NCBI RefSeq assembly: GCF_001428365.1
Contig: NZ_LMSH01000003.1
Coordinates: 1-64,000, forward strand
Direction of reading: 5' to 3'
DNA length: 64,000 nt
From: Arthrobacter sp. Soil763
GTDB taxonomy: Bacteria; Actinomycetota; Actinomycetes; Actinomycetales; Micrococcaceae
Below, one piece after another: positions 29,471 through 55,838 of this stretch (within the stretch, counting starts at the first letter, position 1; every line of letters begins with the position of its first letter). A model generated the notes under the pieces. The model worked only from the letters and a program-made list of their open reading frames with translations, was not told the origin of the DNA and ran no database searches. Position numbers and translations under genes: made by a program.

Positions 29471-29873
29471 ATCGATTCGAGGATTTAGCCGAGTCAACCA
29501 ATGTGGGGCCGTATTCAGTCTTCCTGCCAACGAATCATCCTTTCGAAGCCCTTGCGGGGCATCCCTTTCCAAGGGTTCAGTCTGTTGCTCGGCTAATCCA
29601 CAGCAGGACTCGAGTCGACTCGGTTCCAATCCTTCCCGGCCGCAGGCCCGGCGACAAGTGCGCCGTCTCGTGCAACAGTGTTGCGGAGCCCGCCGGATGC
29701 GGAAAAGCTCCGAATTGCAGCACGCTGGCCCACAGGTGAGGCCGACGTCAGGCCGAACGGCCATGCAGCAGATAAGATCTGTCAAAGATTGTTCACAGAC
29801 TGCGATTGCCAACGACGAACGACGTCAACGATGATCCGGTCGCGTGGATTTACGGTCAAACAGGGGAAAATAC
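29471..29873. other. Gap upstream of the UvrD-nuclease gene
   Basis: Overlapping frames occur on both strands, but none has a ribosome-binding site or protein-like composition over its whole length, so no gene is called. The region may contain remnants of a lost gene and the promoter of the helicase gene. Confidence 0.4.
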
Positions 29874-32861
29874 GTGAAATTCAAGTGGGTCTCTTCGTCC
29901 AAGGAGAAAAAGGCAGCTACGCCTTCCCCGTTCAGTATCAGACCCACGACGCCGTCTTCGGCCAACGTCGGGTCCCCTCCGATCACACCTCCAGGGTCGG
30001 CGGCTGTCGTGCCGGCGAGAGCGCCCGAGTCCGTGATCCCGACACAGCCTGCTAAGTCCACTCCACTGGAAGCCGACGTACCAGTCACCGCTCCGAGCCG
30101 CCCCAAGCCGTCAACCGCGGAAATTCCGGAGCTCGAAGGAGACGCGGCCGCGGCTGTCGCACATCGAGGCAGCCATATCCAAATCATCGCTGCTGCCGGC
30201 TCCGGTAAGACAGAGGTGGTATCGCAGCGAGTCGCATCACTCCTGGCGGACGGTGAAGCTCCAGAGTCAATCGTGGCGTTTACGTTCACTGAGAAGGCCG
30301 CCGCGGAGCTCAAGGAGCGTATTCGCGAACGCGTGACGGCTATCCAAGGATCCGAGGCGACCGACAAGCTGGGTCGCCTGTTCGTCGGCACGATCCACGC
30401 CTACTGCTTTCGAACGCTCCAGACCTATGTCCCACGCTACGAGACGTACACACCATTGGACACAAACCAGCTGACCAACCTTCTATACCGCGAAAGCTTC
30501 AAGCTCGGCATCAAGAATTTGTCGGCCACGGGCCGCACCTTTCAAAGCATTGAAAAGTTTCAGCGAGGCGTAGACGTCCTCGAGAACGAGATGATCGACG
30601 TCAGTGCCCTGCCAGAAGATGACTTCAAGGCCGCTGTCACGGAGTACTACGCGATGCTCGACCGGTACCAGTTCATGTCCTTTGGCACCCAAATCGTCCG
30701 TGCTGTCGAGGCTCTGCAGGATCCCGAAATCCACGCGAAGGTCACTGAGCCGCTTCGGCATCTGATTGTTGACGAGTACCAGGACGTAAACCCGGCGCAA
30801 GAGTGCCTGATATCGCTTTTGGCGAAGCCATACGGCACTGCCGACATTGTCGTTGTCGGTGACGATGATCAAGCCATCTACCAGTGGCGGGGCTCAGCGG
30901 TCAAAAACATTGTGACTTTCGACGAGCGGTACCCCGCCGTCGAGCAGTTTCGCTTGCTGACGAATCGCCGGTCCCGTCCCGGCATCGTCGAACTCGCCAA
31001 CGCATTTGCCAAGACGGTTCCAGGGCGAATCGACAAGGAGATGCACCCTTTTCGTGAAGGTGTCGGACCGTCTGTCGCCTTCACCAGCAATCCCGGCACC
31101 GAGAACGATGAAGCGGAGGAGATCGCGAGGCAGATCCTCGAATTCCGCGAATTGGGCGTCGAGTACAAGGACATCGCCATTTTGGTACGAGGGAGGGCCG
31201 CTTACCCGGCGATTCTTGAGTCACTCGCAGCCCGCCGGATCCCGGTCCAACCAGGCGGACGCACCGGCCTCTTCGCTCAGCCCGAAGCAGAGGTTTTCGC
31301 GGCTACGTACGCTTGGATCGGAGAAATCGATTGGTCACCCGAGAAGTACGGCACCCCCCGGCAGGCGGTCACTCTGGACCGCCTATTAGATGACTACACA
31401 CGCATCTTCGGCTTGACGCCAGCGAGCTTCACCGCGTTGAAAGAGCGCCTGCTGAGCTGGAAGGTGAAGGCGCTGGCCAGCCAGTTTAACGAGAGCCTAG
31501 TCGGGGACTTCTACGTTCTCGTGGAGATGCTCGGCGTGAATCGGTGGGACCTCACCGAAAGTCTGACGCGGAACCGGCTAGGCACAATTGCACGTTTCAC
31601 TAACGTCCTGGCGGATTACGAGGGCGTCAGCTGGCGGGCCCGGAAGGACCCGAACAACCCCGGAGAGCAGGTCGGGGCCAGGAGCGGCGGGGAGTGGTTC
31701 TACAAGAACTTCGCGATCCTGCTCTCGAACTACGCGGTCGGGAGTTACAACGACTTCGCGGGCGAAGAGGATCTCTTCGAGGACGGAGTCGCACTCGGAA
31801 CTGTCCACGGAGCCAAGGGGCTCGAGTGGCCGGTCGTCTTCCTGCCCTCGCTGGTTAAGACGCGCTTCCCCTCCAGCAAGAGCGGCCAGAGCCAGGAATG
31901 GCCGCCGTCACTAGTCGGCAAATTCGACGTCGCACGCTACCAAGGCACCGACGCAGACGAACGCCGTCTCTTCTACGTCGCCATAACTCGAGCCCGCGAT
32001 GCCGTCCTCCTCTCAAGTCATGCGCGACAGAAGAGCGGCAGGACACGCAATGCTTCCGGGTACTTCGAGTACGCCCGCCAAGTCTTCACGAACCAAGGTG
32101 TGCCAACTTCGGTCTCCGGCAAGGGCGGCACAGCCAATTCCGAACTGTCGATCACCTATAGCGAACTGGCCGCATTCGACTCCTGCCCGCGAAGCTACAT
32201 GCTGAAGAATCAACTTGGCTTCATGCCGACGATCCAGGCGGAACTGGGATACGGCAACGCGGTTCACCACACCATGCGAGTGCTCGCGGAGAAAACGAAG
32301 GCCACCGGGACACTTCCAACCGAGTTGCAGATTAATCAACTGCTCGACTCTGAATTCTTCTTGCCATATGCCAACAAGGCTGGCCACAAAGAGATGCGCG
32401 AAAAGGCCCGCAAGCTAGTTCAGCGATACGTTACCGACCATCCGTCGGATCTCTTGCGCACGTGGGCCACGGAACGCCCATTCGAGCTCTACCTGGACGG
32501 CGTGGTCGTTTCCGGCCGGGCCGATGTGATCTACGACGAGCACGACGGCCAAGTCGGCAGTCTCGCAATCGTCGACTACAAGACTTCTACCGGCGAGCAG
32601 ACCAGCCCGCTGCAACTCCAGATTTATGCCGATGCCGGACGCCGCGAAGGACTCGACGTCTCCGCGGCATTCATTCACGACCTCGGCACGACCCAACGTT
32701 ATGACGTCGATGTCGATAAACGCGCCATTGCCAACGCCGAGGCCTCGGTCATCGCCACGGTAGAGAGCCTCAGGCGACGCGAGTACGAACCGAAGCCCGA
32801 GCGTACGAAGTGCCAAATGTGCGATGTCCGGCGGCTCTGTAACGCAGCGGGAGCCCGATAG
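29874..32861 (+). CDS. UvrD-type SF1A helicase fused to a Fe-S PD-(D/E)XK nuclease
   Basis: A 995-residue ATP-dependent DNA helicase-nuclease. GTG 29874 follows AGGGG at good spacing; an alternative GTG is ten codons upstream. Residues 10-95 are a Pro/Ser/Thr-rich, disordered extension. The helicase has Walker A GSGKT (109-113), VAFTFTEKAAAEL, DEYQD (300-304), QAIYQWRG, GTVHGAKGLEW and VAITRARD. The C-terminal quarter is a RecB/AddB-type nuclease with FDSCPRSY, GRADVIYDE ... IVDYKTS, and terminal CQMCDVRRLC. One early and three late cysteines match the 4Fe-4S staple of AddB-like nucleases. It probably resects DNA in repair or defence. It is convergent with the type III restriction genes. Confidence 0.93.
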   Translation: MKFKWVSSSKEKKAATPSPFSIRPTTPSSANVGSPPITPPGSAAVVPARAPESVIPTQPAKSTPLEADVPVTAPSRPKPSTAEIPELEGDAAAAVAHRGSHIQIIAAAGSGKTEVVSQRVASLLADGEAPESIVAFTFTEKAAAELKERIRERVTAIQGSEATDKLGRLFVGTIHAYCFRTLQTYVPRYETYTPLDTNQLTNLLYRESFKLGIKNLSATGRTFQSIEKFQRGVDVLENEMIDVSALPEDDFKAAVTEYYAMLDRYQFMSFGTQIVRAVEALQDPEIHAKVTEPLRHLIVDEYQDVNPAQECLISLLAKPYGTADIVVVGDDDQAIYQWRGSAVKNIVTFDERYPAVEQFRLLTNRRSRPGIVELANAFAKTVPGRIDKEMHPFREGVGPSVAFTSNPGTENDEAEEIARQILEFRELGVEYKDIAILVRGRAAYPAILESLAARRIPVQPGGRTGLFAQPEAEVFAATYAWIGEIDWSPEKYGTPRQAVTLDRLLDDYTRIFGLTPASFTALKERLLSWKVKALASQFNESLVGDFYVLVEMLGVNRWDLTESLTRNRLGTIARFTNVLADYEGVSWRARKDPNNPGEQVGARSGGEWFYKNFAILLSNYAVGSYNDFAGEEDLFEDGVALGTVHGAKGLEWPVVFLPSLVKTRFPSSKSGQSQEWPPSLVGKFDVARYQGTDADERRLFYVAITRARDAVLLSSHARQKSGRTRNASGYFEYARQVFTNQGVPTSVSGKGGTANSELSITYSELAAFDSCPRSYMLKNQLGFMPTIQAELGYGNAVHHTMRVLAEKTKATGTLPTELQINQLLDSEFFLPYANKAGHKEMREKARKLVQRYVTDHPSDLLRTWATERPFELYLDGVVVSGRADVIYDEHDGQVGSLAIVDYKTSTGEQTSPLQLQIYADAGRREGLDVSAAFIHDLGTTQRYDVDVDKRAIANAEASVIATVESLRRREYEPKPERTKCQMCDVRRLCNAAGAR

Positions 32862-37755: not shown

Positions 37756-39258
37756 CTAACCGTCGCCAGATACATCGATTCGGCCGCGAGCAAAAGTCGC
37801 AAGTATCCGCTGGTGGGTCTGCCGGGGCAGCTGCCGGTTGCCGGGCTCTCCAAACGGTGTGCCCGGCCGTGCGGGTGCTTGAGCAAGCAGTTCGTCGAGG
37901 CCCGGGCGCGCAACCATGAGGAGCCCATGGGTGGCGCGGGTGCATGTCACGGCTAGCCGCCCGAACGCAGAGTTGAACGTGTCAAGCTCGGCTGCTCCGT
38001 TAAGCGGGTGGACGGCGACTGTGATTCCGTTGGTCTGTCCCTGGTATGAGTCTACCGTCGAGCTCACGATGTCTCGTTCTGTGAGGTCGTACTTCTCTCG
38101 CAATCGAACAACTACTTCTGCCGCATCGTCGACGGCCTGGTTTCGCGTGGCGAGGATGGCCACCAGAGGATTTTCGTGGTCTCCGCCGGGCTTAGCAACG
38201 GCGAAGCTGCCGATCGGCGTTCCGTCAGAGTCGTATTCCTGAGTCTCAAGGCTTGGCCCGGCAGAGAAGAATTCGCCGAGCAACGCTTCGACAAATTCCA
38301 ACAACGGACCGTCGATATCTGCGGCCTCTGGCTCGGGCAAACCATCGACTTCGAGGAGCGTAGGTACGCCCGTACCGACTTGTCCCCAGATCTCAGTAAT
38401 TGGACCGTCCATCGTCCCCAGGTTAAGGACTCGGTCACCGGGCGCCGCGACACAGTCGAGCCTGTCCCACTCAGGATAGAAGGCCCGCCAGAGCCCAAGA
38501 TGCCCGACAGATGGGCGCCAGACCGCAGGCAGTTCTCTGCCCCACGTGTGGGCATCGTCATCGTAGTCGGTCGGCCAAGCACGGTAAGGATTGTATCCAG
38601 GATCCCCCCGCCACGGGTTGTCGCCGATCTCGAGCGGCGGGAGCTGACCGACATCGCCAACAGCCACCCACTTCGGAGCAGCCTTCGTGACCTTGTCGAA
38701 AAGGTGATGCGGTATCTGCCACGCCTCGTCAACGAACATGACGTCGAACGGCGCTTGGCCGTTGTTTCCAGCACCCAAGCGGTCACGAAGCCTACTTATC
38801 TCATTTGGTGCCCCGAGCCGGCTGCAGGTCGCTACGACGACAGAAGCCGTGTCAGGAATGTCAGACGTTCTGGCTACAACTGTGGCTGCGTCGCTTACCT
38901 CCTGAGGTACCTCCCCCCATTGCTGGGCTGAAACCAAGAGGCACACGCGGTCGCGGCCGAGGCCCTTCCCCAGCGAGGTTGCCAGTGGGCGCACCTGCTT
39001 GTTGGTGAACGCAACGACGACGGCCCGCCTGCAGGCAGCGTGGGCATGAGCCTCGGCTACGAGACGCTTCAGGACGTGCGACTTGCCGGCGCCGGCTGCG
39101 GCCTTAAGCAGAATTCGTTCGACGGGGGACGCCCCTGAGAGGACATCGGCAAGTTCGCGACTAGCATCGTCGGAGACTGCAGCGTTGCACGCTGCCGCTG
39201 CAATGTGATGAGCTGCGCCTGTTGCGATGATTTCTGGTGGTGTGAAGTAGCCGGCCAT
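37756..39258 (-). CDS. SF1 helicase/ATPase paired with the RecB-like nuclease
   Basis: A 500-residue P-loop helicase resembling the Upf1/DNA2-like SF1 group. Walker A AAAGAGKSH (about 53-61) and Walker B VDEAW (176-180) precede GDVGQLPPLEIGDN (motif III). The C-terminal half carries SSTVDSYQGQTNGITVAVHP and LAVTCTRATHGLLMVAR, motifs V and VI. ATG 39258 is preceded by GGAG that overlaps the TGA stop of the nuclease gene (39261-39263), so the two are translationally coupled. It has no nuclease domain of its own and most likely forms a split helicase-nuclease with its neighbour, in contrast to fused homologues. It lies 113 bases upstream of Mod. Confidence 0.85.
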   Translation of the reverse strand: MAGYFTPPEIIATGAAHHIAAAACNAAVSDDASRELADVLSGASPVERILLKAAAGAGKSHVLKRLVAEAHAHAACRRAVVVAFTNKQVRPLATSLGKGLGRDRVCLLVSAQQWGEVPQEVSDAATVVARTSDIPDTASVVVATCSRLGAPNEISRLRDRLGAGNNGQAPFDVMFVDEAWQIPHHLFDKVTKAAPKWVAVGDVGQLPPLEIGDNPWRGDPGYNPYRAWPTDYDDDAHTWGRELPAVWRPSVGHLGLWRAFYPEWDRLDCVAAPGDRVLNLGTMDGPITEIWGQVGTGVPTLLEVDGLPEPEAADIDGPLLEFVEALLGEFFSAGPSLETQEYDSDGTPIGSFAVAKPGGDHENPLVAILATRNQAVDDAAEVVVRLREKYDLTERDIVSSTVDSYQGQTNGITVAVHPLNGAAELDTFNSAFGRLAVTCTRATHGLLMVARPGLDELLAQAPARPGTPFGEPGNRQLPRQTHQRILATFARGRIDVSGDG

Positions 39259-39260
39259 CG

Positions 39261-42143
39261 TCACTCCAGGTCATCGATCGTGAGGTCGGCCGGAACCATT
39301 TCGCTTGGCTCAGAGTACGGGTTGCCGACAGGGGCTCCAGAAGGGATGACTTCAAACGCATCGCCATCGCGAACCGGGGGCCAGACCTGTGGGTTTAGTT
39401 GGCCACGGGCGCGGCGGTCGGCGATGACGTCAGACCACTCCCCCTCCCGACTTTCGTGAGAACGGCAGCACCACTGATGGATCTGCGGCGCCTCATCATG
39501 TGAACCGCTCTCACAGTCCGGCCTCGGCGCAGATTGCGCATCGAGTCCCGGCTTAGCAACGTGGAGGTGGCGGTTTCCTTGATTATTTGAGAACCACTCA
39601 AAGTCAGCAACTATCAGCCGCTCCCCGGCGCTCAGGGGAGGAACCACCTGCGGTGACCAAACGAGATGCGTCTTGGGAGCTGCTTCGTCCGCAACGCCTG
39701 CTCGGTGTAGCGGACCAATACTCATGCCGTCGATCTTAAACGCGCTCTTGGGCGCCACATCAACGGAGGTGATTGCGGCTTCGACGCAGGCCTCGTCGTT
39801 GTGAACGACCATGACGACTCTCGAACCCTCCACAATCCGGCGCGAATCAACATCGAGAACAATCGGATCTGTCGATACCACCGTCGCGAATGCGACTTCT
39901 CGCGTTCCGGCCGAAGTCGCAAGGTCGTGCGCGGACTGCGGGTTCGACAGGGCCAGCAATTGGGCTGTGCAGCGTTGGTCACTTTCGATCATCCGGACTT
40001 GCGAGTTTCTCCAAAAGCGGTAGGTGCGCCCGAACCGAACGAGGTCGGACGCGTGCAGCGAAAGACGCCGACGCCAGACTTCCTGGGCCGCGCTTTCGAC
40101 TGTCCGGTATGTCTCGCGGAGCTTTGAGACCGGGAGGGCCTCCAATACGTCCAGAGTTCGGTCTAGAACATCGCACTTGTAGGCGAGTTCATCCCAAACA
40201 AGGTCGTGATACGAGGGCGAATCGGCTGGGCCACTTCCGGCCGACCGAACACGTGTGCCGGTTAGCGACACGTGAATCGCGTCCGAATGCGCGTTCGCAA
40301 GGCGTGCGCCGGGGGTGTGAATGCTCTCCTCAATCTCGTCGGCATAGGCACGCTGATCCAGCGCGCCTCGGCTGACTGCTTCTGCCCATCCGACGAGATA
40401 GTCGAGGCGGCCGGAGTTCGCAGACGGGCCACCGGCGACGAAATGCCTGGCGAGTACGGCGCGCACGTCGATGATGGGACATCGGAGTGAGAAGGCACGT
40501 GCGCGGTCCTCCTCGAGCAGAAATGAGATGGCAGTTCTGTCGGTCTCGCTGATTGCTGCGGGCATCTCGGCCGGCTCGCCATCAAAGGTCAGCGCCGGTC
40601 GGCCCATGTCCTTGTCTCGCTGCCAACGCAGTCGGCTCAACTCAACACCAGCGAGGTTGTCGGCTACGGAAACGAGAACATCGGCGGTAGCCCGGTCAGG
40701 GACGACGATGTAAATCGCGCCCGGCGACGCGGGGTTAGCTATCCGCTGCTCGCGCATTGCAAGGTTTAGGGCCCTTCCAAGGGTCCTCATCACCTGGCGT
40801 CGCGTTTCCGGAGATTGGGGGTCACTGTAAACGTAGCTCTGCCACTCGCCCCGGCCGTCAGGTGTTACCCGCTGGATGGCCAAGCCGTGCACACCGAGCG
40901 CGGCGGCGTCGGACTTAGCCATGACGACGTTCACCGTCCCGGGGAGGCCCACCTGGTCGACACGCAGCTGACCCGTCGGCTGGGCTACGCCGTGAAGTGT
41001 CGCATCGATATTCGCGGCTACAGTCGCCGGGACTCGTCCAACTTCGCTCGAGCCGTCGACCAAGCCCATCGCCTGTGTACGCAGGTCGCGGCTGATTCCC
41101 AGTTCGATCAAGAGATCAGCCGGATCTTCGGACCTGCGGAGTTCGTCGCGGCAGAAGGAGAAGAGCGTACACGTGGTGCAAGTTGCCGGATCGAACGTGG
41201 CCTTTAGGTGAGACACGAACTCGGGCAGCGGAGTTGACTCGTCACGATCGGTCGCAAGGGCCTCCGCGCGGCGCTCCGCAATGCGGAGCAGCACCTCCTC
41301 CCGGTAATCGTGAAGGTTCTCCACCACTGCTTCCGGCTGCAAGAAGGAGTTTCTCGGCACTGCCAGGACGCCATGGGTGTGTACGTCCATTTCCGCTGGC
41401 AGCTGGGACCAGCCCCTGCACGACTCGGCCCCGACCGCGACTTGAAGGAATCCCTTGAGCATTCGGGAGTCCTCAATCCGCGAACGCAGTCGCTCGTAGT
41501 CTTTGGCGTCGCCGACTATGAGCCAGGTCCCCGAACCGTCGCCCTTCGCCTTCCGCGCTACAACGGCGAAGTCCGGCTTCACGTCGGTCGCCCGAGAACC
41601 CTCGAAGCCAACGAACGGAACAGACAGGTCGTAAACAAGTGTGGCCGCCCCGGACAGGACCGCGCGCTCGTGGGCGTCAGCAAGCAGTTTCGCCGTCGTA
41701 CTCACATTGACGTGCGCGTTGACCGTGACAACCTCTGCCGGACGGTCGAGACCGAGATAGCCGACGGCCGTCGTAGCGATCTTGCCGGCGAACGATTCTT
41801 GACGAATCAAGCGCTCAAACGTCATCGCACGCATCCACCGAGCTTGCGGAATTCCACCGGCTGTGTCTGCGAAGCCCACAGCCTTCGCAAGGTTTCGTCG
41901 CGTCAATCCGGTGATAAGCGGGTCGGTGCCTCGGAAACGTGCGCAGGCTGCGTGCGACGAAGAGGCAACCGCCCCCGAGCCGCCCCCGACTGACTTCGTT
42001 GCCAATGAACCTCCCCAAATGCTCGCTGCCAATCCTATAGCTCGAGGAATCTCTCCGGCATGAAGACACGCTTTGGAGAAGGTCTCTACAGGACTGCTCC
42101 ACGTGACGTCCATGCTCCACTGCGGGACAGATGCGTCGGACAT
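39261..42143 (-). CDS. Large RecB-like PD-(D/E)XK nuclease with Fe-S-type cysteines
   Basis: A 960-residue protein of unknown overall family. Near residues 190-215 is a nuclease core: KPDFAVV (Asp191) and IVGDAKD (D-x-K at 212-214). Cysteines 322, 325 and 331 (CTTCTLFSFC), perhaps with Cys242, form an AddB/Cas4-like Fe-S pattern. The middle half is unlike anything I can name. The last 120 residues hold a Cys/His cluster (CESGSHDEAPQIH then CC..SH) that may bind zinc. Starts are uncertain: ATG 42143 is used; TTG 42158 and a later ATG are possible, and none has a strong ribosome-binding site. Its stop overlaps the ribosome-binding site of the helicase gene. Confidence 0.78.
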   Translation of the reverse strand: MSDASVPQWSMDVTWSSPVETFSKACLHAGEIPRAIGLAASIWGGSLATKSVGGGSGAVASSSHAACARFRGTDPLITGLTRRNLAKAVGFADTAGGIPQARWMRAMTFERLIRQESFAGKIATTAVGYLGLDRPAEVVTVNAHVNVSTTAKLLADAHERAVLSGAATLVYDLSVPFVGFEGSRATDVKPDFAVVARKAKGDGSGTWLIVGDAKDYERLRSRIEDSRMLKGFLQVAVGAESCRGWSQLPAEMDVHTHGVLAVPRNSFLQPEAVVENLHDYREEVLLRIAERRAEALATDRDESTPLPEFVSHLKATFDPATCTTCTLFSFCRDELRRSEDPADLLIELGISRDLRTQAMGLVDGSSEVGRVPATVAANIDATLHGVAQPTGQLRVDQVGLPGTVNVVMAKSDAAALGVHGLAIQRVTPDGRGEWQSYVYSDPQSPETRRQVMRTLGRALNLAMREQRIANPASPGAIYIVVPDRATADVLVSVADNLAGVELSRLRWQRDKDMGRPALTFDGEPAEMPAAISETDRTAISFLLEEDRARAFSLRCPIIDVRAVLARHFVAGGPSANSGRLDYLVGWAEAVSRGALDQRAYADEIEESIHTPGARLANAHSDAIHVSLTGTRVRSAGSGPADSPSYHDLVWDELAYKCDVLDRTLDVLEALPVSKLRETYRTVESAAQEVWRRRLSLHASDLVRFGRTYRFWRNSQVRMIESDQRCTAQLLALSNPQSAHDLATSAGTREVAFATVVSTDPIVLDVDSRRIVEGSRVVMVVHNDEACVEAAITSVDVAPKSAFKIDGMSIGPLHRAGVADEAAPKTHLVWSPQVVPPLSAGERLIVADFEWFSNNQGNRHLHVAKPGLDAQSAPRPDCESGSHDEAPQIHQWCCRSHESREGEWSDVIADRRARGQLNPQVWPPVRDGDAFEVIPSGAPVGNPYSEPSEMVPADLTIDDLE

Positions 42144-42180
42144 TGTTGCAAAGCGCAAGGGCGGCGGTAGTGCGCTCTGA

Positions 42181-43413
42181 CTATGCGCTCAGCAACTTCG
42201 AGAGGTAGCTTTCCCCCACCACAGTAATCCCGTAAGCGCGGGCTTTCTTGGCTTTGCCCGACAGGCTGTCGGGATCGGCCGCCACCAAGAGTTTCACTGC
42301 TTTGGTGATCGCCGGATGCGGTACAAAGCCTGCGGCTCTGAGGTCCGCCTCGATTTCGCTTCGATCCCGCGACATTTCACCGGTAAGGACGACCTTGTCA
42401 CCGGCGGCCAGCACCAGCGACTGTCCAACGGCACCGCTGTCTGTGTCTTGTACGGCGATCGGGGCGGCCAGTCCTTGGGTGATCGAATCCTGGCTGATAC
42501 CGAGCAGGCCTGCAACCAGTCGAAGATCAGCTTCCTCCTCCGGCGTGATGACGCCGTCTTGCCAGGCTGCGGCAAGCATCGCGACCATGTAGTCGACGTG
42601 AAGTTGTTCCGCGGAACTACGACTGATTCCGAGCTCATCGGCCAGTGCAACGAGGCTGTTCGCCTCGGATGCGGAGATCTGCCGGTCCATGAGCGCCCGG
42701 TCGAGCATGGCCAGGTAGGCAGTGTGCTCGTCGGTGCCGGCCACTTCGGGCAGCCGGTTGACCAGGCGCTCCAGAAAATGTGGCTGCGGCTCCTCCGTCG
42801 TTGGACGCAGGGCAGGTGGCTGGCGCTTTGGCGTCACAGCCGGCCAGGACGCGAAATAGGCCCGGTCGAGGGCACTGAACCATTCGGGGTTTTCGGAATC
42901 CATGTGCAGGTAGTTGCTCAGCACATGGGCGGCGGCCTCAGCGTCGTCGCCGGCGCTGTGTGCATTGTCGAGGCTCACTCCGAAGCTGTCGCAGCAGTCC
43001 TTCAACGACCGTCCTGCGCCCGGCAGGTACCGCCGTGCCAGCTTCATCGTGCAGAGGCAGTCGTGGACCTCGAATGGAATGGCAAGTCCTGCCCGCCCCA
43101 GCTCATGGGAAACGAAGCGGTAATCGAACTGGACGTTATGGGCGACTAGGACACGCCCCGCGAGGAGGCCCATCACATCGTGGGCGATGTCGTCAAAAAC
43201 CGGGGCGTTCAGCACGTCAGCGGCCCGGATGCCATGGATGTGTTGCGGCCCAAGGTCCCGCTCAGGATTGACGAGCGTCTCCCAGCGGTTGCTGACAGTC
43301 CCATCCGGTTCGACGTGCACGACGGCGATCTCGGCAATGCGGTGACTCCCAGGATAAAGCCCGGTCGTTTCAACGTCAACAACAGCATAACCAGCGCTCA
43401 AATTGTTCCCCAT
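42181..43413 (-). CDS. DnaQ-like 3'-5' exonuclease with TerB-like and BRCT domains
   Basis: A 410-residue three-domain protein. Residues 8-170 are a DEDDh exonuclease: VVDVETTG (Asp13, Glu15), HNVQFDYRF, and HSAGDDAEAA with the late His and Asp. Residues about 220-305 are a helical TerB-like module (DRQISASEANSLVALADELG and DGVITPEEEADLRLVAGLLG). Residues about 335-408 are a BRCT domain (GDKVVLTGEMS ... YGITVVGESYLSKLL). The plan recalls DNA polymerase III epsilon-like nucleases coupled to a damage-signalling fold. ATG 43413 lacks a ribosome-binding site; a TTG four codons later has GGGGAA before it. It is tightly packed between the GmrSD-like gene and the RecB-like nuclease gene. Confidence 0.9.
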   Translation of the reverse strand: MGNNLSAGYAVVDVETTGLYPGSHRIAEIAVVHVEPDGTVSNRWETLVNPERDLGPQHIHGIRAADVLNAPVFDDIAHDVMGLLAGRVLVAHNVQFDYRFVSHELGRAGLAIPFEVHDCLCTMKLARRYLPGAGRSLKDCCDSFGVSLDNAHSAGDDAEAAAHVLSNYLHMDSENPEWFSALDRAYFASWPAVTPKRQPPALRPTTEEPQPHFLERLVNRLPEVAGTDEHTAYLAMLDRALMDRQISASEANSLVALADELGISRSSAEQLHVDYMVAMLAAAWQDGVITPEEEADLRLVAGLLGISQDSITQGLAAPIAVQDTDSGAVGQSLVLAAGDKVVLTGEMSRDRSEIEADLRAAGFVPHPAITKAVKLLVAADPDSLSGKAKKARAYGITVVGESYLSKLLSA

Positions 43414-43420
43414 ATCAGTG

Positions 43421-45211
43421 TTAAAGGCTGCGGTAGTAGTCCCGGATGAAGTGCGACATTAAGAGACGACGCTCGGTAAGGAAGTCACCGTACGACTCTG
43501 CGGTGGTTGTATAGATCGAATCCGGCACCGCGTTCGCAGCTAGGTTTTCCTTGAGTTCATACAACTCTGTGATCTCGCCAAGCCGACGCTCACCGTCGGC
43601 GATCTGCATATTGAGTCGCTCCATGTAGTCGGCGGGCGCCGAGTCTTTGATTCCTATATTGATTGGCGTCTCGGTCAGCGCAAAATTAGCAATTTGGTTG
43701 TAGTCATTTCGATCAGCTACACCGTTCTTCTGCAAGTAGTTCTTCGGGACCAGGTGGTGGATGTCGCCGGACTCCTCCAACATGTTGGCCACGGTAATGT
43801 TCTTGGAGAGAAAACCTCTGGCGCCGGAGTGCACCTGGGCGGCCAAGTACGTCTGAAAGAACGGGCTCCTTACGCTAGGACTTTCCATGGCCATAGGGAC
43901 GGCTACGTCCCAGAAGTTGTCGCTCATTGATGACTTCTCAATGTTGTCCAAAAACTCGCTTGCTCCCAGTTCCGATATTCTCCGGATGTCAGCGTCGAAG
44001 GCTGATTCAAATGAGCCGGTGTATCGAGTCGTGATGAGGGACATTACAAACCACTTCCGGACCACCCGTTTGATGTCGCCTTCGGTCATCCGCCCTTCAC
44101 CGCGTAGGTGGAGATACATGGCATATGCGAAGTTCAGTGCGTTCTTGGAACTGATCATGCTCGGCGAAACGAACCCAGCTGACTTGATCGTCATCGTGAA
44201 CTGCTGAAAGTTGTACTCGTTGACGATTTCGAGGAGAACACTCTCCAATTTTTTGAACGACTCGACAGCGAGCTCTTCGTCGAAGCTCCTGGTCTCGAAG
44301 TCGCGCCCGGAAAGGACGCTAACCAGAGCGGCCACCTTTCCCCGTTTGAAGGCCTTGATTCCCGCCACCCGGATAACATCGGTGTACGTCGGATCGTAGA
44401 GGTCGGAGGTATCCCGACGAAGCCACGCAATCTTCTGCATGTATCCCGAGGCCGCAAAGGCCGAATCGTTCTCCGCGATGTCGTCATAGACGTGAGGGGC
44501 CACCGCAAGGTGGCAAAAGTAGTCGATCAGCTTGCGCAGGTTAGATCCGAACTCGCCGTGGCTCGCGATCTTACTCATGGCGAAGTCAGCGCTACTCAGA
44601 GGCACACCTTTAGAGTTGATTCGAATGAAGATTTCGGTCACCGTGTTGATGTCGAGATCTTCACCGAGCGTGATGATTCCCACTTGTGCCGTCTTAATTG
44701 CCCCCAGCTTGCCGAACGCCTGTTCAACGGCGAGCTCGTCCACGCTTGGATTTGCGGCCAAATAGTCTCGCATGATTCCCAGAACCGACGGCGCACTAAT
44801 GAATTCCGAAACGTCGGAGAGCCACTCGGGGCTCTTTTCTAGGACCGGTGTAAGTGTTGCAAACTCTTCAGAGACGGGGTTGAACGCGATCTTAATCCGC
44901 TTCCGCGCATAGCTCTTGTCCACCACCGGCTCTCCGACTAGCGCCGCAGTCATTGCCGTAATACGTTGCTGACCATCAATAAGGATCTGTTTGAAGTTTG
45001 AAGTGCTGCCATCCTTTAGTCCAACCTCGAGACTCTGCCAGGTGATGAGGTACCCGATAGGAAACCCGTTGTACAAGGAGTCCATGAGGTCACGGACCTT
45101 GGTCGAGTTCCACACGAAAGGCCGCTGCATCTCGGGGATGGCGATCTGTTTGCTGCGGACCCACCCAAGCAGCGTGTCCACTTGCTGCTGCTGAACTGTA
45201 TATTTCGCCAT
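43421..45211 (-). CDS. DUF262/DUF1524 (GmrSD-like) restriction protein
   Basis: A 596-residue single-chain relative of GmrS-GmrD, the type IV restriction enzyme against modified phage DNA, and of SspE. The N-terminal DUF262 domain has the ParB-like motif IDGQQRITAM (Asp79-Gln-Gln-Arg) used for nucleotide hydrolysis. A middle helical region leads to a DUF1524 HNH nuclease with DIHHLVPKNYL (His485-His486) and the Asn pair in DYNQIAN (505, 509). ATG 45211 is preceded by an A-rich stretch with AAGAAACGAAG-type purines. Its stop lies seven bases before the exonuclease start, so it heads a compact operon. It probably senses and cuts modified DNA. Confidence 0.9.
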   Translation of the reverse strand: MAKYTVQQQQVDTLLGWVRSKQIAIPEMQRPFVWNSTKVRDLMDSLYNGFPIGYLITWQSLEVGLKDGSTSNFKQILIDGQQRITAMTAALVGEPVVDKSYARKRIKIAFNPVSEEFATLTPVLEKSPEWLSDVSEFISAPSVLGIMRDYLAANPSVDELAVEQAFGKLGAIKTAQVGIITLGEDLDINTVTEIFIRINSKGVPLSSADFAMSKIASHGEFGSNLRKLIDYFCHLAVAPHVYDDIAENDSAFAASGYMQKIAWLRRDTSDLYDPTYTDVIRVAGIKAFKRGKVAALVSVLSGRDFETRSFDEELAVESFKKLESVLLEIVNEYNFQQFTMTIKSAGFVSPSMISSKNALNFAYAMYLHLRGEGRMTEGDIKRVVRKWFVMSLITTRYTGSFESAFDADIRRISELGASEFLDNIEKSSMSDNFWDVAVPMAMESPSVRSPFFQTYLAAQVHSGARGFLSKNITVANMLEESGDIHHLVPKNYLQKNGVADRNDYNQIANFALTETPINIGIKDSAPADYMERLNMQIADGERRLGEITELYELKENLAANAVPDSIYTTTAESYGDFLTERRLLMSHFIRDYYRSL

Positions 45212-45361: not shown

Positions 45362-47692
45362 TCAGTCGTTGCCGCTCAGGATAATCGCGATCTTCTCCAA
45401 CACTGCCGGCAAGATGGCCGGCTGGACGCTTTGCCGGATCTTCTCAGCCAGGTGCGTGGCATTTGATTCAGCAAGCCCAAGCTCGAAGGGTCCGAGCTTA
45501 TCCAATTCGATCCTGCCAAAGGGCGCACGCAGTACGTCTGGATCGGCCTGGTCTGGACCGCTAGATGGGTTGCTTTGTTCCACATTCTCTTCTGACCGAA
45601 CTGAGGGATGCTCTCCTAATTCAGCGGCGTCTCTCTCGGGCATTCCTGGCACCGGCGCTTCGTCCGGTCCACCGAGGAGTACCGGCAGCCGCCCAGCCGG
45701 ATATACAACATCCAAGTACGTTGTCGTGCGGGTTAGCGCGATGTAGAGCATCCGGCCGCCGTGCGGCATATCCAAAATCGCCTGGGGGTCCGCAACAATG
45801 ACAGCGTCAAACTCAAGACCTTTGGAATCCTCCGGGGTAACCAGATTTATGGCGGAGGATAGTCCGCCGTCACTCGACTGGCTCCACTGGAGATCTTTCG
45901 CCTCGAATGCTGTTCGTAGTTCCGGCCACCGTTCCTCACAGGCGACCACACCTACAAATCGCCCGCGTCCGCTGTGTTCGAAGACCGCAGCGACAATAGC
46001 ATCAGCAAAATCCGTTTGAGTAGTTCTTATGAAGCGCGGCTGCTGCCCGGCCTCACGGAGAATCGTGGGGGGTGTGACAGCGGGCGCTGCCGACTTTAGA
46101 ACCGGCAGCGCGACGTCGAAAACCTCTTTAGGCACACGATAACCATGCTCGAGCTCCACTACGGCGGACGGCAACGACGACCCGAGCAAGACTTGAACGT
46201 CATCCCAGGAATTACGGGAGTAAGGTCCGGTGGACTGGGCAATGTCGCCAACGACAGTCATGGAGCCGGTCTTTGACCGTCGACGGATCGCCATAAGCTG
46301 CATCTCTGACAGGTCCTGTGCTTCGTCGACCACTATGTGCCCATAGAGCGTTGGTTCGCCGCGCATGATTTCAGTGGCTTCATCGATCAAGGCCAGGTCG
46401 GCCATGGTCCATGGTTCGTCAGCAATTCGGGGGGCGGAAGGCCGGTGTAGCAGAGAAATTTCTACTGCGCTGAGGAATCCTTCCCCAGCGCGCTGCAGCC
46501 TTTCCGATGATCCGAGTAGTTCGCGGATGAACTGGGGCGGCGTTATCTGAGGCCAAATCTTTTCGACTTCGGCGTCGAGCGACACTGGGTCAAGAGCCGA
46601 TTCCAGAACCGTGCCGCGGGCAGCGCCAAGCTGGGGCCCTACGAGCCGCAGGATTTGTTGGCGGAGGGCAAGACGGCCATCAGCAAAAGTTGCGCTGCTT
46701 ATGGACCTGATGATCTCTGCCAGTTCACCGGCGTTTGCAGTCACCGTTGAACCAGATCCCCTGCGCCGAATCTTGATGTCCGCATTCGGGATTCGTACCC
46801 GCTGCTGGAGTCCAGTGGCGAGTACGTCGCTCATTCTGGATGAGCCCTTTACCGATGCGACGTTGTCGGATTCGCGGCCGCCGACCCGAATGTCAGCAGC
46901 GAGCAGCTGCTGGAGTGCTTGCTGTTGGACGTTTTCGTCACCGAGATCCGGGAGGACCCGCCGGATGTAGCGTGTGAAAGTCGGGTTCGGTCCCACCACG
47001 AGAACATCCTCTGGCGGCAACTCGTCTTGAAAGTTGAAGAGAAGCCAGGATACCCGGTGCAGGGCAACCGCTGTCTTGCCCGTTCCCGGTCCGCCCTGAA
47101 CAACGAGGAGTTGGTCTTTGGCGGCTCGTACCAGCTTGTCCTGGGCGGCCTGTATGGTCCGCACGATGTCGACCATGGCTCCACTTCGACGCCGCTGCAT
47201 GGCCTGCAATAGGGCGTCGCCGCCGTACTTGGCGCTTTCAAGCTCGACGACGGCTGCAGCGATATCACCAAAGACCAAGTCCTCGAAGTCGCGGATTTCG
47301 TTTCCGAGACAGTCGTAGGTCCTTTTCCGAGACAGGCCCAGAGGTTCCTGCGCAGTGGCCTGGCTGTAGGGCTCGGCCGCTTTCGACTGCCAGTTGGTCA
47401 CCAGCAGGTCTTTCTGTTCATTGAGGATTCGCACTTTGCCGATGTAAAGGGGATCTTCACCGTCGGCGTCGATGCGGCCAAAGGCAGCCGGCTCATCCGG
47501 CGCGACGATTGTCCGTCGGTTGGCTTCTAATTGCATGGCGCGGCGCTCTGCGGCTGTCCCCCCAGAGAAATTCGACGGAGCCCAAGATGCTGCGGCGGCT
47601 TCACGATGTTCCTTGGCGGCGTCGAAATAAGCCTGCTCTTGATCTTTCTCGGCGATCTTAGAGAGATCCCTGACTGTCGCTTCCGCGCTCAT
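45362..47692 (-). CDS. HelD/HelR-like RNA-polymerase-associated SF1 ATPase
   Basis: A 776-residue protein with the HelD plan: an N-terminal coiled-coil (residues 10-60), the HelD signature DPLYIGKVRI ... LLVTNWQSKAAEPYSQAT, then UvrD-type ATPase motifs GGPGTGKTAVALHR (200-213), VVDEAQDLS, VGDIAQS, and LYIALTRTTTYLDVVYPAG. HelD proteins remove stalled RNA polymerase from DNA, and some actinobacterial forms (HelR) give rifamycin tolerance. The C-terminal 110 residues after the ATPase are an acidic linker plus a short helical domain, unlike the shorter tails I know. ATG 47692 has AAGGGG before it; the frame is open 84 codons upstream. Its presence inside a defence island is notable. Confidence 0.88.
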   Translation of the reverse strand: MSAEATVRDLSKIAEKDQEQAYFDAAKEHREAAAASWAPSNFSGGTAAERRAMQLEANRRTIVAPDEPAAFGRIDADGEDPLYIGKVRILNEQKDLLVTNWQSKAAEPYSQATAQEPLGLSRKRTYDCLGNEIRDFEDLVFGDIAAAVVELESAKYGGDALLQAMQRRRSGAMVDIVRTIQAAQDKLVRAAKDQLLVVQGGPGTGKTAVALHRVSWLLFNFQDELPPEDVLVVGPNPTFTRYIRRVLPDLGDENVQQQALQQLLAADIRVGGRESDNVASVKGSSRMSDVLATGLQQRVRIPNADIKIRRRGSGSTVTANAGELAEIIRSISSATFADGRLALRQQILRLVGPQLGAARGTVLESALDPVSLDAEVEKIWPQITPPQFIRELLGSSERLQRAGEGFLSAVEISLLHRPSAPRIADEPWTMADLALIDEATEIMRGEPTLYGHIVVDEAQDLSEMQLMAIRRRSKTGSMTVVGDIAQSTGPYSRNSWDDVQVLLGSSLPSAVVELEHGYRVPKEVFDVALPVLKSAAPAVTPPTILREAGQQPRFIRTTQTDFADAIVAAVFEHSGRGRFVGVVACEERWPELRTAFEAKDLQWSQSSDGGLSSAINLVTPEDSKGLEFDAVIVADPQAILDMPHGGRMLYIALTRTTTYLDVVYPAGRLPVLLGGPDEAPVPGMPERDAAELGEHPSVRSEENVEQSNPSSGPDQADPDVLRAPFGRIELDKLGPFELGLAESNATHLAEKIRQSVQPAILPAVLEKIAIILSGND

Positions 47693-47744
47693 GAACGAGC
47701 CCCTTCGCTGAGGACCCCCACGGCCCGGACTGATGTACGAAGAC

Positions 47745-47770
47745 AAATGTAATCTGTGGCACAGACATTT
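47745..47770. promoter_or_regulatory. Dyad upstream of the HelD-like gene
   Basis: TCTGTG-G-CACAGA (47753-47765) is a perfect 6-bp inverted repeat, with an outer AAATG/CATTT pair offset by three bases. It lies about 60 bases before the HelD-like start codon, suiting an operator or promoter-proximal hairpin. No regulator gene is next to it. Confidence 0.4.
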
Positions 47771-47898
47771 CTTTGCAGGTTCGCCGCGACAAGCCAGGCT
47801 TATAGTGCGGGCACATTGCCAGCCACGGGCAAGAGAGGACCATCGAATTTGGAGCTCGGCACGTTCTGGTGCGAGCACGCGCAGCCACCCCTTAGTTG

Positions 47899-48375
47899 TC
47901 AGATGACGCGGCGTACGGACGGTCTGCTCATTCGCCCCGGCCAAGCACTCCTGTCCCGCGCAGAACGCTGTAGCGCCAAAGCCTCTTCATAGAAAGCTAG
48001 TCTCGTAGCGGAACGTCCGAGATTGTTTTGGGTGAGCGCAAAGCTCAGTGCCAGAACCAGACCCAAGGCAGCGACTCCACCCCCGACAATCAAAGGATGA
48101 ATAGGCAGATCGGCCAACTGAAATACCCCCGAAACGATCAGTGGGTAGGCGACCAGGGCGGCACCCGCAAAGACGGCAACCAAAGCACCAAAGCTCCCTC
48201 CACCCAGGTGTGCCGTATCTCGTCGAAGCTCTCTCAATTCTTCAAACTGCAGCAGGGGATCCAGCGCCAGGAATGCGGCTACTTCAGACGGTCGAACACG
48301 AGGATCTAGACGGAACAGCCTTTCCAAGCGTTCGCTACTTATTGTGGGATATTGCCTGGGTTCGTATGAATGCAT
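47899..48375 (-). CDS. Small two-helix membrane protein, unknown function
   Basis: A 158-residue protein. The first 60 residues are soluble and charged (SSERLERLFRLDPRVRPSEV), followed by two hydrophobic helices (about 66-88 and 95-115) and a basic C-terminal tail. This looks like a cytoplasmic domain with a membrane hairpin. The ATG has no clear ribosome-binding site, so the true start could be slightly downstream. It sits between the PLD-DEAD gene and the HelD-like gene in the same direction. I do not recognise the family; a membrane-tethered partner of the neighbouring defence genes is possible. Confidence 0.65.
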   Translation of the reverse strand: MHSYEPRQYPTISSERLERLFRLDPRVRPSEVAAFLALDPLLQFEELRELRRDTAHLGGGSFGALVAVFAGAALVAYPLIVSGVFQLADLPIHPLIVGGGVAALGLVLALSFALTQNNLGRSATRLAFYEEALALQRSARDRSAWPGRMSRPSVRRVI

Positions 48376-48480: not shown

Positions 48481-51400
48481 TTATTGAGCTACCGCAGCCG
48501 CTGTGGCGTAAACATCCGCCGGCATCGGCCGGTGCAGCTTCCAAGTGATCGCAATCGGCTTCTCCCCCGCGTGCTGCACATAGTCCACCTGGCCGAGACA
48601 CGCATACGGAACAGTCAGACCTGTCTCGTCTTCGGCCGCATCCCTGGTGAAGATGAGGATCTTCGAATCGCGCGCAGCCCGATTCAAGTACCTTCTTCCC
48701 GTCGGGCTACCCGGCGAGGTCGCGTTCTGCGATTCCCAGTGGAACAGCTCCGGGCTGATGGCGTAGTCCTTATACATGGTCGTGGCCGAGTGCTTCTTGT
48801 CGTCCTTGTTGAGAGTGACAAAGAAGGCATCGGTGGATGTCGCGGGGCACCAGGCCACACCCTCGCGATGCTGCACACTCTTGCCTAGTTCCAGGGAACC
48901 GTACTGCAGGGCCGAAAGGACTTCCTCACGCCGATAGGTGGCGTGCGAGAGCAGTGGGATGTGCTGCAACCCTGCTCCAAGGCCCTTGGCGGCATGCTTG
49001 GAGGCTGCCACACCGAGTCTCACGATCTGGCGGATCTCGCTGCAGACAAACTTGTAGCCGCGCAGGTGGTCGAGGCCGGCGTCGTAAGACTGGAAGCCGC
49101 CGCCGTCGTCCCAAAGCGTGTAGAACAGCATGCGGGCGAAGGTCTGCTCGCGCATGCCGAGGTCCGCGTAGCGGGGAGCGTCTGCGCCGACGAGCATCGA
49201 GTAGGCATCGGCGCGTTCCGGATCGTCTACATGGATCAGACGCGCCATCCGGCTGAGGAGCTTTTTTTCGTCGGCGTCCGAGAGCTCTTGAATCCTCCCC
49301 GTGATGACTGCCTCCAGCGGAGAGAACCCCTCGATCAAACCGGCCGTGCGCAAGTACCCGGTCCACGAGTCCTTCGTGGACCGGTAAATCGACTTCACGT
49401 CGTTCCCGGACCGCTCGAGATACGCATGCAGCTCGGTCTCCGCGTACGAGGCGATGTCCCGGACGAGCTGCACCCGGTTGAACCGCAGCTGCGCCTTGAT
49501 GTTGTTCAGCACCACCTTCTGCGCCACCCTGTCCAGCACAATCTGAGAGCCCGACGGCAGGTACGGGAACTCGTCCTCGACCGCCTTTTCCAGTTCCTTG
49601 CGCCCGTAGCCGGTGAGGGCCCGGTAGCGCAGATCGAAGCGGAATTCACGGCGCTGCTGGCCGATGAAGTCCATGACGGTCAGCACCGCCTTGCCCTCGG
49701 CTCGACGCAGGCCCCGTCCCAGTTGCTGAAGGAAGATCGTGGCGCTCTGCGTGGGCCGGAGCATCAGGATGGTGTCCACCTGCGGCAGGTCCAGGCCTTC
49801 GTTGAAGAGGTCGACGGCGAAGATGCAGTTGATCTCGCGTGCGGCGAGACGCTTCAGCGCCGCCGCCCGGTCGGCGTCGTCGGTGCTGCCGTCGACCGCA
49901 ACGGACGCGATCCCGGCGCGGTTGAAGACCTCCGCCATGTAGTGGGCGTGCTGGACCGAGACGCAAAAGCCGATGGCCCGCATCTGCTCGGTGCTGGTGA
50001 CCTTGTCGCGGAGTTCGCGGATCACCTTGGCGGAGCGGGCGTCGTTGCCGGTGTAGAGGTTGTTCAGCTGCGCGGTGTCGTAGTTGCCGCGCTTCCATTC
50101 CAGCTGGCTGAGGTCGACGTCGTCCGAGACACCGAAGTAGTGGAACGGCACCAGCAGATCCGCGTCCAGGGCGTCCCAAAGGCGCAGTTCGCTGGCGGTG
50201 CGGCCGTCGAAGAACTGCTGGGCGACGTCGACGCCGTCGCCGCGTTCCGGCGTCGCGGTCAGCCCGAGGAGCTGCTGCGGTTGCAGGTGGTCCAGCAGCC
50301 GGCGGTAGGTGGGCGCCATAGCATGGTGGAATTCATCGATGACGACGACGTCGAAGAAGTCGGGTGCCAGCTGTTCAATGCCGAGGGATGACAGCGACTG
50401 GACGGAGGCGAAGATGTGCTTCCACTGCCTGGGTTTGTGCTCCCCGACGTAAAGTTCGCCGAAGGCGCCGTCCTGCATGACGTCGCGGTAGGTGCGCATG
50501 GCCTGCTTGAGGATTTCCTGGCGGTGGGCGACAAAGAGCAACTTCAGGTTCTTGCCGGCCGCTTCGCAGAGACGCTTGTAGTCCAGCGCGGCGATGACGG
50601 TTTTGCCGGTGCCGGTGGCGGCGACCAGGAGGTTGTGGTTGAAGCCCTTGAGCCGCTCGGCTTCGAGGTCTTCAAGCATTTCCTCCTGGTGGAGGAAAGG
50701 CTGAAGCTCAAGGCCGGTGGCTGCCCCGGGGACCGCTGTGCGCCGGCCGCCGTTTCGTTCCAGCGCGGCGTCCAGCTTTTCGCCGTCGCGTTCGGGATCG
50801 TAGCTCTGGAAGGCGCGTTGTTCCCAGTAGCTGTCGAAGGTGACCTCGAACCTGTTCAGGAGTGCGGGCGTGCCGACGGAGCTGAGCCGGACGTTCCATT
50901 CGAGGCCGTCGAGGAGGGCTGCCTGGCTCAGGTTGGAGCTGCCGACGTAGGCGGTGTCGAAGCCTGAGTTGCGGCGGAACAGCCAGGCCTTGGCATGGAG
51001 ACGGGTGGCCTGGGTTTCGTAATTTATCTTCACTTCGGCGCCGTAACGTGTGACGAGCTCGTCGATGGCACGGCGTTCTGTGGCACCCATGTAAGTCGTG
51101 GTGATGACGCGGAGTTTGGCGCCTCGCTCCCTGAGCTCCTCGAGCGCCGGATGGAGCAGGCGGAGGCCTGTCCAACGGACGAAGGCGCAGAGGAGATCCA
51201 CGGTGTTTGCGGATTCGATCTCGGTTCGGAGTTCCGCGGCGAGGTTCGGATCGTCCTTGCTGTTGGTCAGCAGAGCCGAATCGCCGAGTTTGGTGGTGGG
51301 GCGGCGCAGGTTGCGGCGTTTAAGGGTGTCCGGGCGGTGGAGGGACTGGAGTTGGGTGGGGCCGGGTGCGATGCGGTCCCCGATGTTCAATTCCCGGAGG

Positions 51401-55691: not shown

Positions 55692-55838
55692 CCCCGCTAT
55701 TTCGGCAACCCGTGCTGACGGCCGCGTTGCGCACATAGCGCCGGCCGACCGCCCGTTCACTGCGCCGAAGTCCAGTAACAACATAAAACTATGAACATAG
55801 CGGCCAAACACACCAGGCCAGACTTCAAAGGAGTAACA

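Follow-up and report, generated by a model that had tools for sequence, protein, structure and literature searches.

Which enzyme destroys foreign DNA once an ATP-dependent restriction system has recognised it? The task is usually left to housekeeping exonucleases. A locus of Arthrobacter sp. Soil763 (NCBI RefSeq assembly GCF_001428365.1) raises the question whether a dedicated helicase-nuclease may perform it. The stretch that was analysed, referred to below as the window, comprises 64,000 nucleotides (contig NZ_LMSH01000003.1, positions 1 to 64,000). A preliminary description of its sequence proposed a module of three minus-strand genes coding for an exonuclease, a RecB-like nuclease and a superfamily 1 (SF1) helicase. 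The three open reading frames (ORFs) are indeed present at the places given (Table 1). The nuclease and the helicase are a conserved pair, and this pair adjoins three kinds of restriction-modification partners. We give about an even chance (0.5) to the reading that the pair is an exchangeable helicase-nuclease accessory, degrading DNA that ATP-dependent restriction enzymes have recognised or cut.

The nuclease is rare. It was found in 2 of the 396 genomes of the phylum that were searched, the window's genome among them. A three-row profile scan of a collection holding one genome per species retrieved 56 distinct loci, and a plasmid collection yielded two more, on Rhodococcus plasmids. With L007 and L050, which are the same Dermacoccus locus, counted once, 58 loci are available outside the window. 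All 56 loci and both plasmids are actinobacterial as classified from their names. A pattern matched 89 stretches of viral contigs, and no relative was among them. In 53 of the 58 loci both genes can be followed to their stop codons; three of the other five run off their contig (L021, L037, L062) and two are broken (L055, L063). The junction of nuclease and helicase measures -14 to +14 bp in 50 of these 53 loci (exceptions L027, L039 and L050, with the L039 helicase broken near its end), and the two remain separate genes in all 53 and in the window. Pairwise distances of the two proteins are closely correlated (r 0.91, n=53, window included; 0/2000 permutations as high). The tight junctions and correlated distances therefore identify the nuclease and the helicase as one unit, whose products presumably form a complex.

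The preliminary description gave the nuclease 960 residues. Aligned homologues start about 51 codons inside that long ORF, where a ribosome-binding site, GGGGAGG, is followed by a TTG codon. Because both place the start at 42005, the protein has about 914 amino acids and is separated by a 175-bp gap from the stop codon of the exonuclease (42181). The PD...D-x-K motif and the CxxC cysteines already noticed were confirmed. The catalytic positions proposed as Asp191 and Lys214 are D145 and K168 in the corrected numbering; together with C21, Q188, C276, C279 and C285 they are invariant in 52/52 rows, and D166 is kept in 51/52. One early cysteine (C21) and three late ones, spaced C-x2-C-x5-C (C276, C279, C285), surround the PD...D-x-K centre, a spacing that we take to be that of the iron-staple layout. 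Since one early and three late cysteines flank the catalytic centre in this way, as described for AddB, DNA2 and Cas4 (PMC7430649, in the sections drawn on here), the nuclease is predicted to carry an iron-sulfur cluster.

The domain reading of the nuclease is based on VIA-align Z scores. Residues 1-305, the first 20 of which have low confidence in the structure model, best match 7mi5_A, a Cas4/Cas1/Cas2 entry (Z 10.9, root-mean-square deviation 4.3 over 198 residues), followed by MGME1 (5zyu_A, Z 9.6) and Dna2 (5ean_A, Z 7.3). Residues 351-634 resemble RNase T (3ngy_C, root-mean-square deviation 3.8 over 164 residues), at a Z of 8.7 that barely exceeds the level that VIA-align calls a common arrangement. 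At the end of the first strand of this middle domain lies the invariant K364, which by our own reading of the strand order presumably occupies the place of the first Asp of DEDD enzymes; the domain may therefore be inactive. With the whole model Foldseek gave weak matches, MGME1 being the best (E 4.2e-3). At E 0.1 the nuclease had no match among the Pfam, PADLOC and NCBIfam models, and a Protein Data Bank (PDB) sequence search with its profile gave no match up to E 1.

The helicase was correctly recognised as an SF1 enzyme, as confirmed by Pfam matches. Its start is coupled to the nuclease stop, the ribosome-binding GGAG (39267-39264) running into the stop codon at 39263-39261, as was also noticed at the outset. 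Sixteen motif residues are invariant in 51/51 rows and a seventeenth (S60) is S or T. For the structure model (predicted local distance difference test, pLDDT, 84.7), the three top Foldseek matches are Dna2 structures (5eax, 5ean and 5eaw, E 5e-14 to 2e-13), followed by Ighmbp2 and Upf1. In VIA-align, coronavirus nsp13 comes first (Z 22.3) and UvrD, of the SF1A class, reaches 20.7, its matches covering fewer residues than those of Upf1-like folds. The helicase is likely of the SF1B class with 5'-3' polarity; as nsp13 leads this comparison and UvrD scores near the Upf1-like folds, the models do not amount to proof.

As judged from motifs and models, the pair looks like a split enzyme of the Dna2/Bad type. 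Bad of Geobacillus stearothermophilus, a DNA2-like enzyme with nuclease and helicase fused, contains an iron-sulfur cluster and a central domain that is unexplained, and acts as a single-stranded DNA endonuclease and a 5'-3' helicase; its gene adjoins a type III Mod-related methyltransferase in all inspected Geobacilli instances, and a novel class of restriction enzymes has been suggested by its authors (PMC7430649, same sections). Bad and the pair would share an iron-staple RecB-type nuclease, an SF1B helicase, an extra central domain and a type III Mod-related neighbour. Contrary to the pair, Bad is a single polypeptide, and the likeness drawn here is one of description. Neither type ISP partners nor partner exchange are mentioned in those sections of the Bad account. 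Eukaryotic DNA2 offers the best Foldseek match of the helicase and also matches the nuclease domain (Z 7.3), whereas the window pair is split, has an RNase H-like middle domain, is rare and is carried by an island. In the titles and opening abstract lines of the open-licence papers searched, neither the split pair nor its type ISP partners nor an exchange of partners is described; a term search within PMC12839542 gave a single hit, located among its references.

The type III Mod and Res genes, which the preliminary description treated as flank, turned out to be a recurrent partner of the pair. In the window, the ATG of Mod (37642) lies 113 bp past the helicase stop and the PADLOC match starts at the same place. 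In 15/15 loci having Mod, Mod-Res of the window family starts 4-175 bp past the helicase. A single-chain type ISP enzyme adjoins the pair in 14 further loci: 12 of these genes diverge from the nuclease start, one lies 4 bp upstream on the same strand (L051) and one is found 136 bp past the helicase, in the place of Mod (L017). The L030 enzyme contains Type_ISP_C, ISP_coupler, Mrr (159 bits) and helicase domains; short ORFs occur in L049 (577 amino acids, at a contig end), L057 (1254) and L058 (945). Two loci, L031 and L042, have another type III-like pair, called III-variant here. Domains were tested on L030 for type ISP and on L042 for III-variant, the remaining loci being assigned by clustering of neighbour genes. 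Among the 53 labelled rows of the nuclease tree, window included, 16 are thus associated with Mod-Res, 14 with type ISP, two with III-variant and 21 with none of these by clustering, the neighbours of the latter having been scanned in part. Contig ends were too near for a label in L021, L034 and L059, and L037, L055 and L063 are outside the tree. In a background of 198 actinobacterial genomes, ISP_C occurs in 23 and window-type Mod in 4, so direct adjacency by chance should be very rare.

These positions bear on the idea that the pair is a defence system in its own right, with restriction-modification genes as simple companions in the same islands. This would account for the 21 of 53 labelled rows that have no adjacent partner, and for the variety of defence genes seen near the pair in scanned loci (GmrSD, SMC-type, BrxHI-like, Old/GajA-like). 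Partners that did no more than share an island would be expected at scattered places, whereas Mod keeps its distance past the helicase in 15/15 loci and the type ISP enzyme stands directly beside the pair in 14/14; we therefore consider this idea improbable.

Partner labels change on the nuclease tree, with 15 changes needed against a shuffled mean of 28.8 (0/200 shuffles as low). The Mod-Res rows are in one half of the tree and most type ISP rows in the other; L017 and L051, both type ISP, are in the Mod-Res half, and III-variant is in the type ISP half. Nuclease distances are correlated with those of Res (r 0.59, n=15), of the type ISP enzyme (r 0.88, n=11) and of a UvrD-Cas4 fusion discussed below (r 0.86, n=10), each with 0/2000 permutations as high. 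The same holds for Mod and Res (r 0.49, n=15; 0/2000).

According to the reading that we prefer, the nuclease and the helicase would act as one enzyme, the two-gene counterpart of Dna2 or Bad. A type III Mod-Res enzyme in the window, or a type ISP enzyme elsewhere, would recognise unmodified DNA and cut it. The pair would then load on ends or flaps: the Upf1/Dna2-type SF1B motor would move 5' to 3' and expose single-stranded DNA, the iron-sulfur-stapled PD-(D/E)XK domain would cut it, and the DNA would be degraded beyond repair or replication. Because type III and type ISP enzymes, which differ in mechanism, share the same neighbour, we infer that the pair acts on the product of restriction and not on the recognition site. 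The pair may thus be the part that destroys foreign DNA once recognised, its polarity, nuclease activity and loading after restriction all being putative. If true, a helicase-nuclease that swaps type III and type ISP partners would open the fate of restricted DNA to direct tests, and the neighbourhoods of Bad with type III Mod and of UvrD-Cas4 with Mod-Res would join in one picture.

Several observations weigh against this reading. No such partner adjoins the pair in 21/53 labelled rows, and a type ISP enzyme is encoded elsewhere in only 3 of the 21 partnerless genomes. Conversely, Mod-Res of the window family occurs without the pair in 3/3 other Mod-positive regions (L141-L143), and the pair is absent from the 13.6 kb read around a type ISP enzyme of the window's own genome (L144). 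Nuclease and Mod distances (r 0.18; 140/2000) and Mod and UvrD-Cas4 distances (r 0.31; 117/2000) are not significantly correlated, and common host ancestry can inflate all such correlations. The nuclease tree is a quick one, with Shimodaira-Hasegawa-like approximate likelihood ratio test (SH-aLRT) values only, and L051 bears a long-branch flag; for these reasons it is L017 and III-variant that carry the case for an exchange of partners. Finally, distant relatives of the pair, described below, have recurring chromosomal neighbours that suit housekeeping as well as defence. The weak Mod correlation would fit swapped target-recognition parts. Since pairs occur without partners and Mod-Res and type ISP enzymes without the pair, the pair and the enzymes are optional for each other. 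N6_N4_Mtase was found in 9/21 partnerless genomes, in 8 of them over the cut-off. In L029, a row of the Mod-Res half, a short Mod-like remnant (14241-14468, 68% identity) follows the helicase; it represents an apparent loss of Mod-Res, and some partnerless rows may be losses. The type ISP enzyme of the window's genome (G000:C6:62332-63459) matches that of L030 with 64% identity, and the 13.6 kb read end at the contig end.

The main rival is a different division of labour, in which the pair does the cutting for a new restriction enzyme, and Mod, with Res or the type ISP enzyme, only recognises and marks DNA; the authors of the work on Bad raised this idea for their enzyme. It is kept alive by the nuclease motif of Res. 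The window Res, a 34-bit match to PADLOC REase_III, has PD...D-x-H, and in its family the motif reads PD...D-P-H-G, with His in the position of the catalytic Lys in 16/16 rows; the two III-variant Res have E-V-S. On the other hand, the Res genes of L141 and L142, where the pair is lacking, likewise encode D-P-H, the type ISP partner examined in L030 keeps its Mrr nuclease domain, and in 21 rows no Mod, type ISP enzyme or III-variant adjoins the pair. We regard this division of labour as unlikely. A Res without catalytic Lys was also considered as the reason for the presence of the pair and rejected as not specific, the pairless Res having the same His.

The window locus holds a second helicase-nuclease beside Mod-Res, a UvrD helicase fused to a RecB/Cas4-like nuclease and convergent to Res (29844-32861). 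Its match to the Cas4 family TIGR00372 reaches 39 bits, under the cut-off of 65. UvrD-Cas4 fusions most commonly adjoin type III Mod and Res (PMC5704561, in the part drawn on here); they embody the same idea as the pair, an SF1 helicase-nuclease, with the difference that the helicase is of the UvrD type. Such a fusion is near Mod-Res in 8/15 other Mod-Res loci, and the window thus combines both kinds, a split Dna2-like pair and UvrD-Cas4. The fusion, with an expected 3' to 5' polarity, could act on the opposite strand and complete a RecBCD-like set of opposite polarity. In a tentative extension of the preferred reading, which we hold to be possible at less than even odds, some ATP-dependent restriction systems would carry such a bipolar machine, made of a split Dna2-type 5'-3' enzyme and a 3'-5' UvrD-Cas4, with the split enzyme interchangeable and acting on the product. 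Close kinship of the window helicase with that of UvrD-Cas4 was rejected, as profile comparison aligns the Walker A stretch only (45 columns).

A search with the helicase (tblastn) revealed distant relatives on two Streptomyces plasmids (L064, L065) and in Nonomuraea (L066). They belong to an operon coding for a nuclease of about 380 amino acids, a protein X of about 500 and a helicase of about 450, hereafter the intermediate family. The window helicase aligns with the intermediate helicase profile over 416 columns (E 4.9e-40). The window nuclease matches the intermediate nuclease profile with E 9.4e-8 and a probability of 94%, catalytic and cysteine regions being aligned; the single-sequence comparison, before an alignment of its own was used, had been weak (E 0.0092, probability 4.4%). 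X occupies the operon place of the second half of the window nuclease and resembles it weakly (E 0.44 alone, E 0.024 as a profile); a PDB sequence search with the X profile found nothing. Designed repeat proteins, the top PDB matches of the intermediate nuclease profile, were judged to be chance matches. Like the window pair, the operon combines a related nuclease and helicase in mostly overlapping genes; unlike in the pair, the nuclease and X are separate.

The intermediate nuclease is present in 15/396 genomes of the phylum, most of them of one genus, and 20 loci were examined (L064, L065, L066 and 17 genomic regions). All three genes are found in 17/20, one of which (L090) has a stop in the nuclease. 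Junctions of -13 to -4 bp separate nuclease and X in 15/18 loci and X and helicase in 12/17. Three further families of neighbours come back in 10-11 of the 20 loci, an indication that in many cases the operon has a fixed place in the chromosome; it is possibly a genome-maintenance operon. No match to Mod, Res or ISP was found among the 14 commonest neighbour clusters. In L093-L104, the operon stands among recurring chromosomal neighbours whose families occur in up to 11/20 loci. On both Streptomyces plasmids, a small gene, the nuclease, X and the helicase are directly upstream of Wadjet JetABCD, and no Jet genes were found in the other 18 of the 20 loci.

The recurring chromosomal neighbours of these relatives, most of one genus, raise the possibility that the pair protects the host by processing ends from accidental self-restriction and feeding them into repair instead of destroying phage DNA. 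DNA2 and AddAB resect breaks for repair, in line with such a role. The sporadic distribution of the pair (2/396 genomes), its plasmid copies and its location in a low-G+C defence island argue otherwise, and a protective role has in our estimate a low probability.

The pair had been likened to a split version of fused RecB/helicase proteins. This remains apt as a description of the architecture. The window's genome encodes a fused nuclease-helicase of the TM0106 family. Its helicase is related to that of the window mostly through the intermediate family: the intermediate helicase aligns with the TM0106 protein over 371 columns (E 3.3e-18), and the window helicase does so directly over 85 columns (E 3e-5). 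Membership of the window nuclease in the TM0106 family was rejected, for it has no TIGR03491 match at E 0.1 and hhalign with the member from the same genome gave no domain match; the intermediate nuclease does not match that protein either. Because neither nuclease matches TM0106, the idea of a split fusion has sequence support for the helicase only.

The exonuclease does not belong to this unit. It was originally described as carrying TerB and BRCT domains; in Pfam, RNase_T matches with E 3.2e-27, BRCT is just above the cut-off and TerB is below it. It is a full-length member of PDC-S48, already a PADLOC candidate. The proposal that the three genes are one module has on its side their adjacency on the same strand in the window and the occurrence of exonuclease homologues somewhere within 5/58 nuclease loci (L028, L044, L050, L051, L057). 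Their places and strands vary; the nearest homologue, that of L028, is encoded on the opposite strand about 0.6 kb upstream, and a small ORF lies between it and the nuclease. An exonuclease directly upstream on the nuclease strand was seen in none of the 58 loci, of which L009, L021 and L034, with less than 1 kb upstream, cannot be judged. At E <= 1e-80, PDC-S48 occurs in 14/149 genomes of the order, window's included, and the 15 regions round its copies in the 13 other genomes have neither the nuclease nor the helicase. In the window itself, the single packed run originally seen holds for nuclease and helicase, whereas the exonuclease is set apart by the 175-bp gap and the separate nuclease start. 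Co-occurrence thus leaves nuclease and helicase together and the exonuclease mostly apart from them. The trio was rejected as a unit and its membership in one module is, in our view, highly improbable; the exonuclease looks like a roaming island gene, judged to be a candidate of its own outside the pair. A literature search with the term 'PDC-S48' found no paper. In two regions (L181, L182), the end of the PDC-S48 match is followed on its strand, after 76 and 49 bp, by a type ISP match. In L044 (6991-13971), GmrSD-like, SMC/Lamassu-like and PDC-S48 genes and a small ORF constitute one minus-strand run beside the pair.

Table 1. Features of the locus and of the related protein encoded elsewhere in the same genome.
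Feature	Coordinates	Strand	Basis or remark
Nuclease, about 914 amino acids, TTG start	39261..42005	-	Start from homology and ribosome-binding site; 52-row alignment; model pLDDT 88.7; fold matches
Nuclease ribosome-binding site GGGGAGG	42010..42016 (42016-42010)	-	Sequence; TTG at 42005 next
Nuclease residues 1-305, iron-staple-like PD-(D/E)XK, Cas4/MGME1/Dna2-like	41091..42005	-	Alignment and fold matches
Nuclease residues 351-634, RNase H-like fold resembling DEDD exonucleases	40104..40955	-	VIA-align; K364 invariant
Nuclease residues 831-850 (C831, H843, C846, C847, H850)	39456..39515	-	Invariant in 52/52 rows; could bind metal
SF1 helicase, 500 amino acids, Upf1/Dna2-like	37756..39258	-	Pfam AAA_19/AAA_30; ATG at 39258
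Helicase ribosome-binding site GGAG	39264..39267	-	Directly before nuclease stop codon (39263-39261)
Type III Mod methyltransferase, 706 amino acids	35522..37642	-	PADLOC MTase_III PDLC03645, 898 bits
Type III Res, 877 amino acids	32892..35525	-	Pfam ResIII E 2.1e-10; overlaps Mod by 4 bp
UvrD helicase and RecB/Cas4-like nuclease fusion	29844..32861	+	UvrD 178.9 bits, PDDEXK_1 84.9 bits (Pfam)
DEDDh exonuclease-TerB-BRCT, PDC-S48	42181..43413	-	PADLOC 549.8 bits over 403 of 411 positions; judged outside module
GmrSD-like gene	43421-45211	-	
HelD-like gene	45362-47944	-	
Type IV-like enzyme	48481-51636	-	
TM0106 family RecB-like nuclease (TIGR03491), fused with helicase	G000:C3:121585-122919		Window's own genome

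The genome measures 3.54 Mb and the window is on its contig 3. Between about 28 and 60 kb (28001-60000, about 32 kb), the G+C content is 0.58-0.63, versus 0.65-0.71 in the rest of the window, and this stretch holds many defence-type genes. On the minus strand, the order of transcription is type IV-like, HelD-like, GmrSD-like, exonuclease, nuclease, helicase, Mod and Res. The placement of the three genes between a GmrSD-like gene and type III Mod/Res was confirmed with Pfam and PADLOC, with 7 bp between exonuclease and GmrSD-like gene (43413/43421). A tRNA scan of the window found none, and a promoter and terminator scan found no more sites than in shuffled sequences. Inside the island, the HelD/HelR-like gene, below the NCBIfam cut-off, is kin of RNA-polymerase-recycling motors, and a NERD-UvrD gene is located at 54018-55691. 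A DUF6308 gene is found in the island (55791-56474), and on both Rhodococcus plasmids such a gene immediately precedes the nuclease (L005, 14180-14848; L006, 14178-14846).

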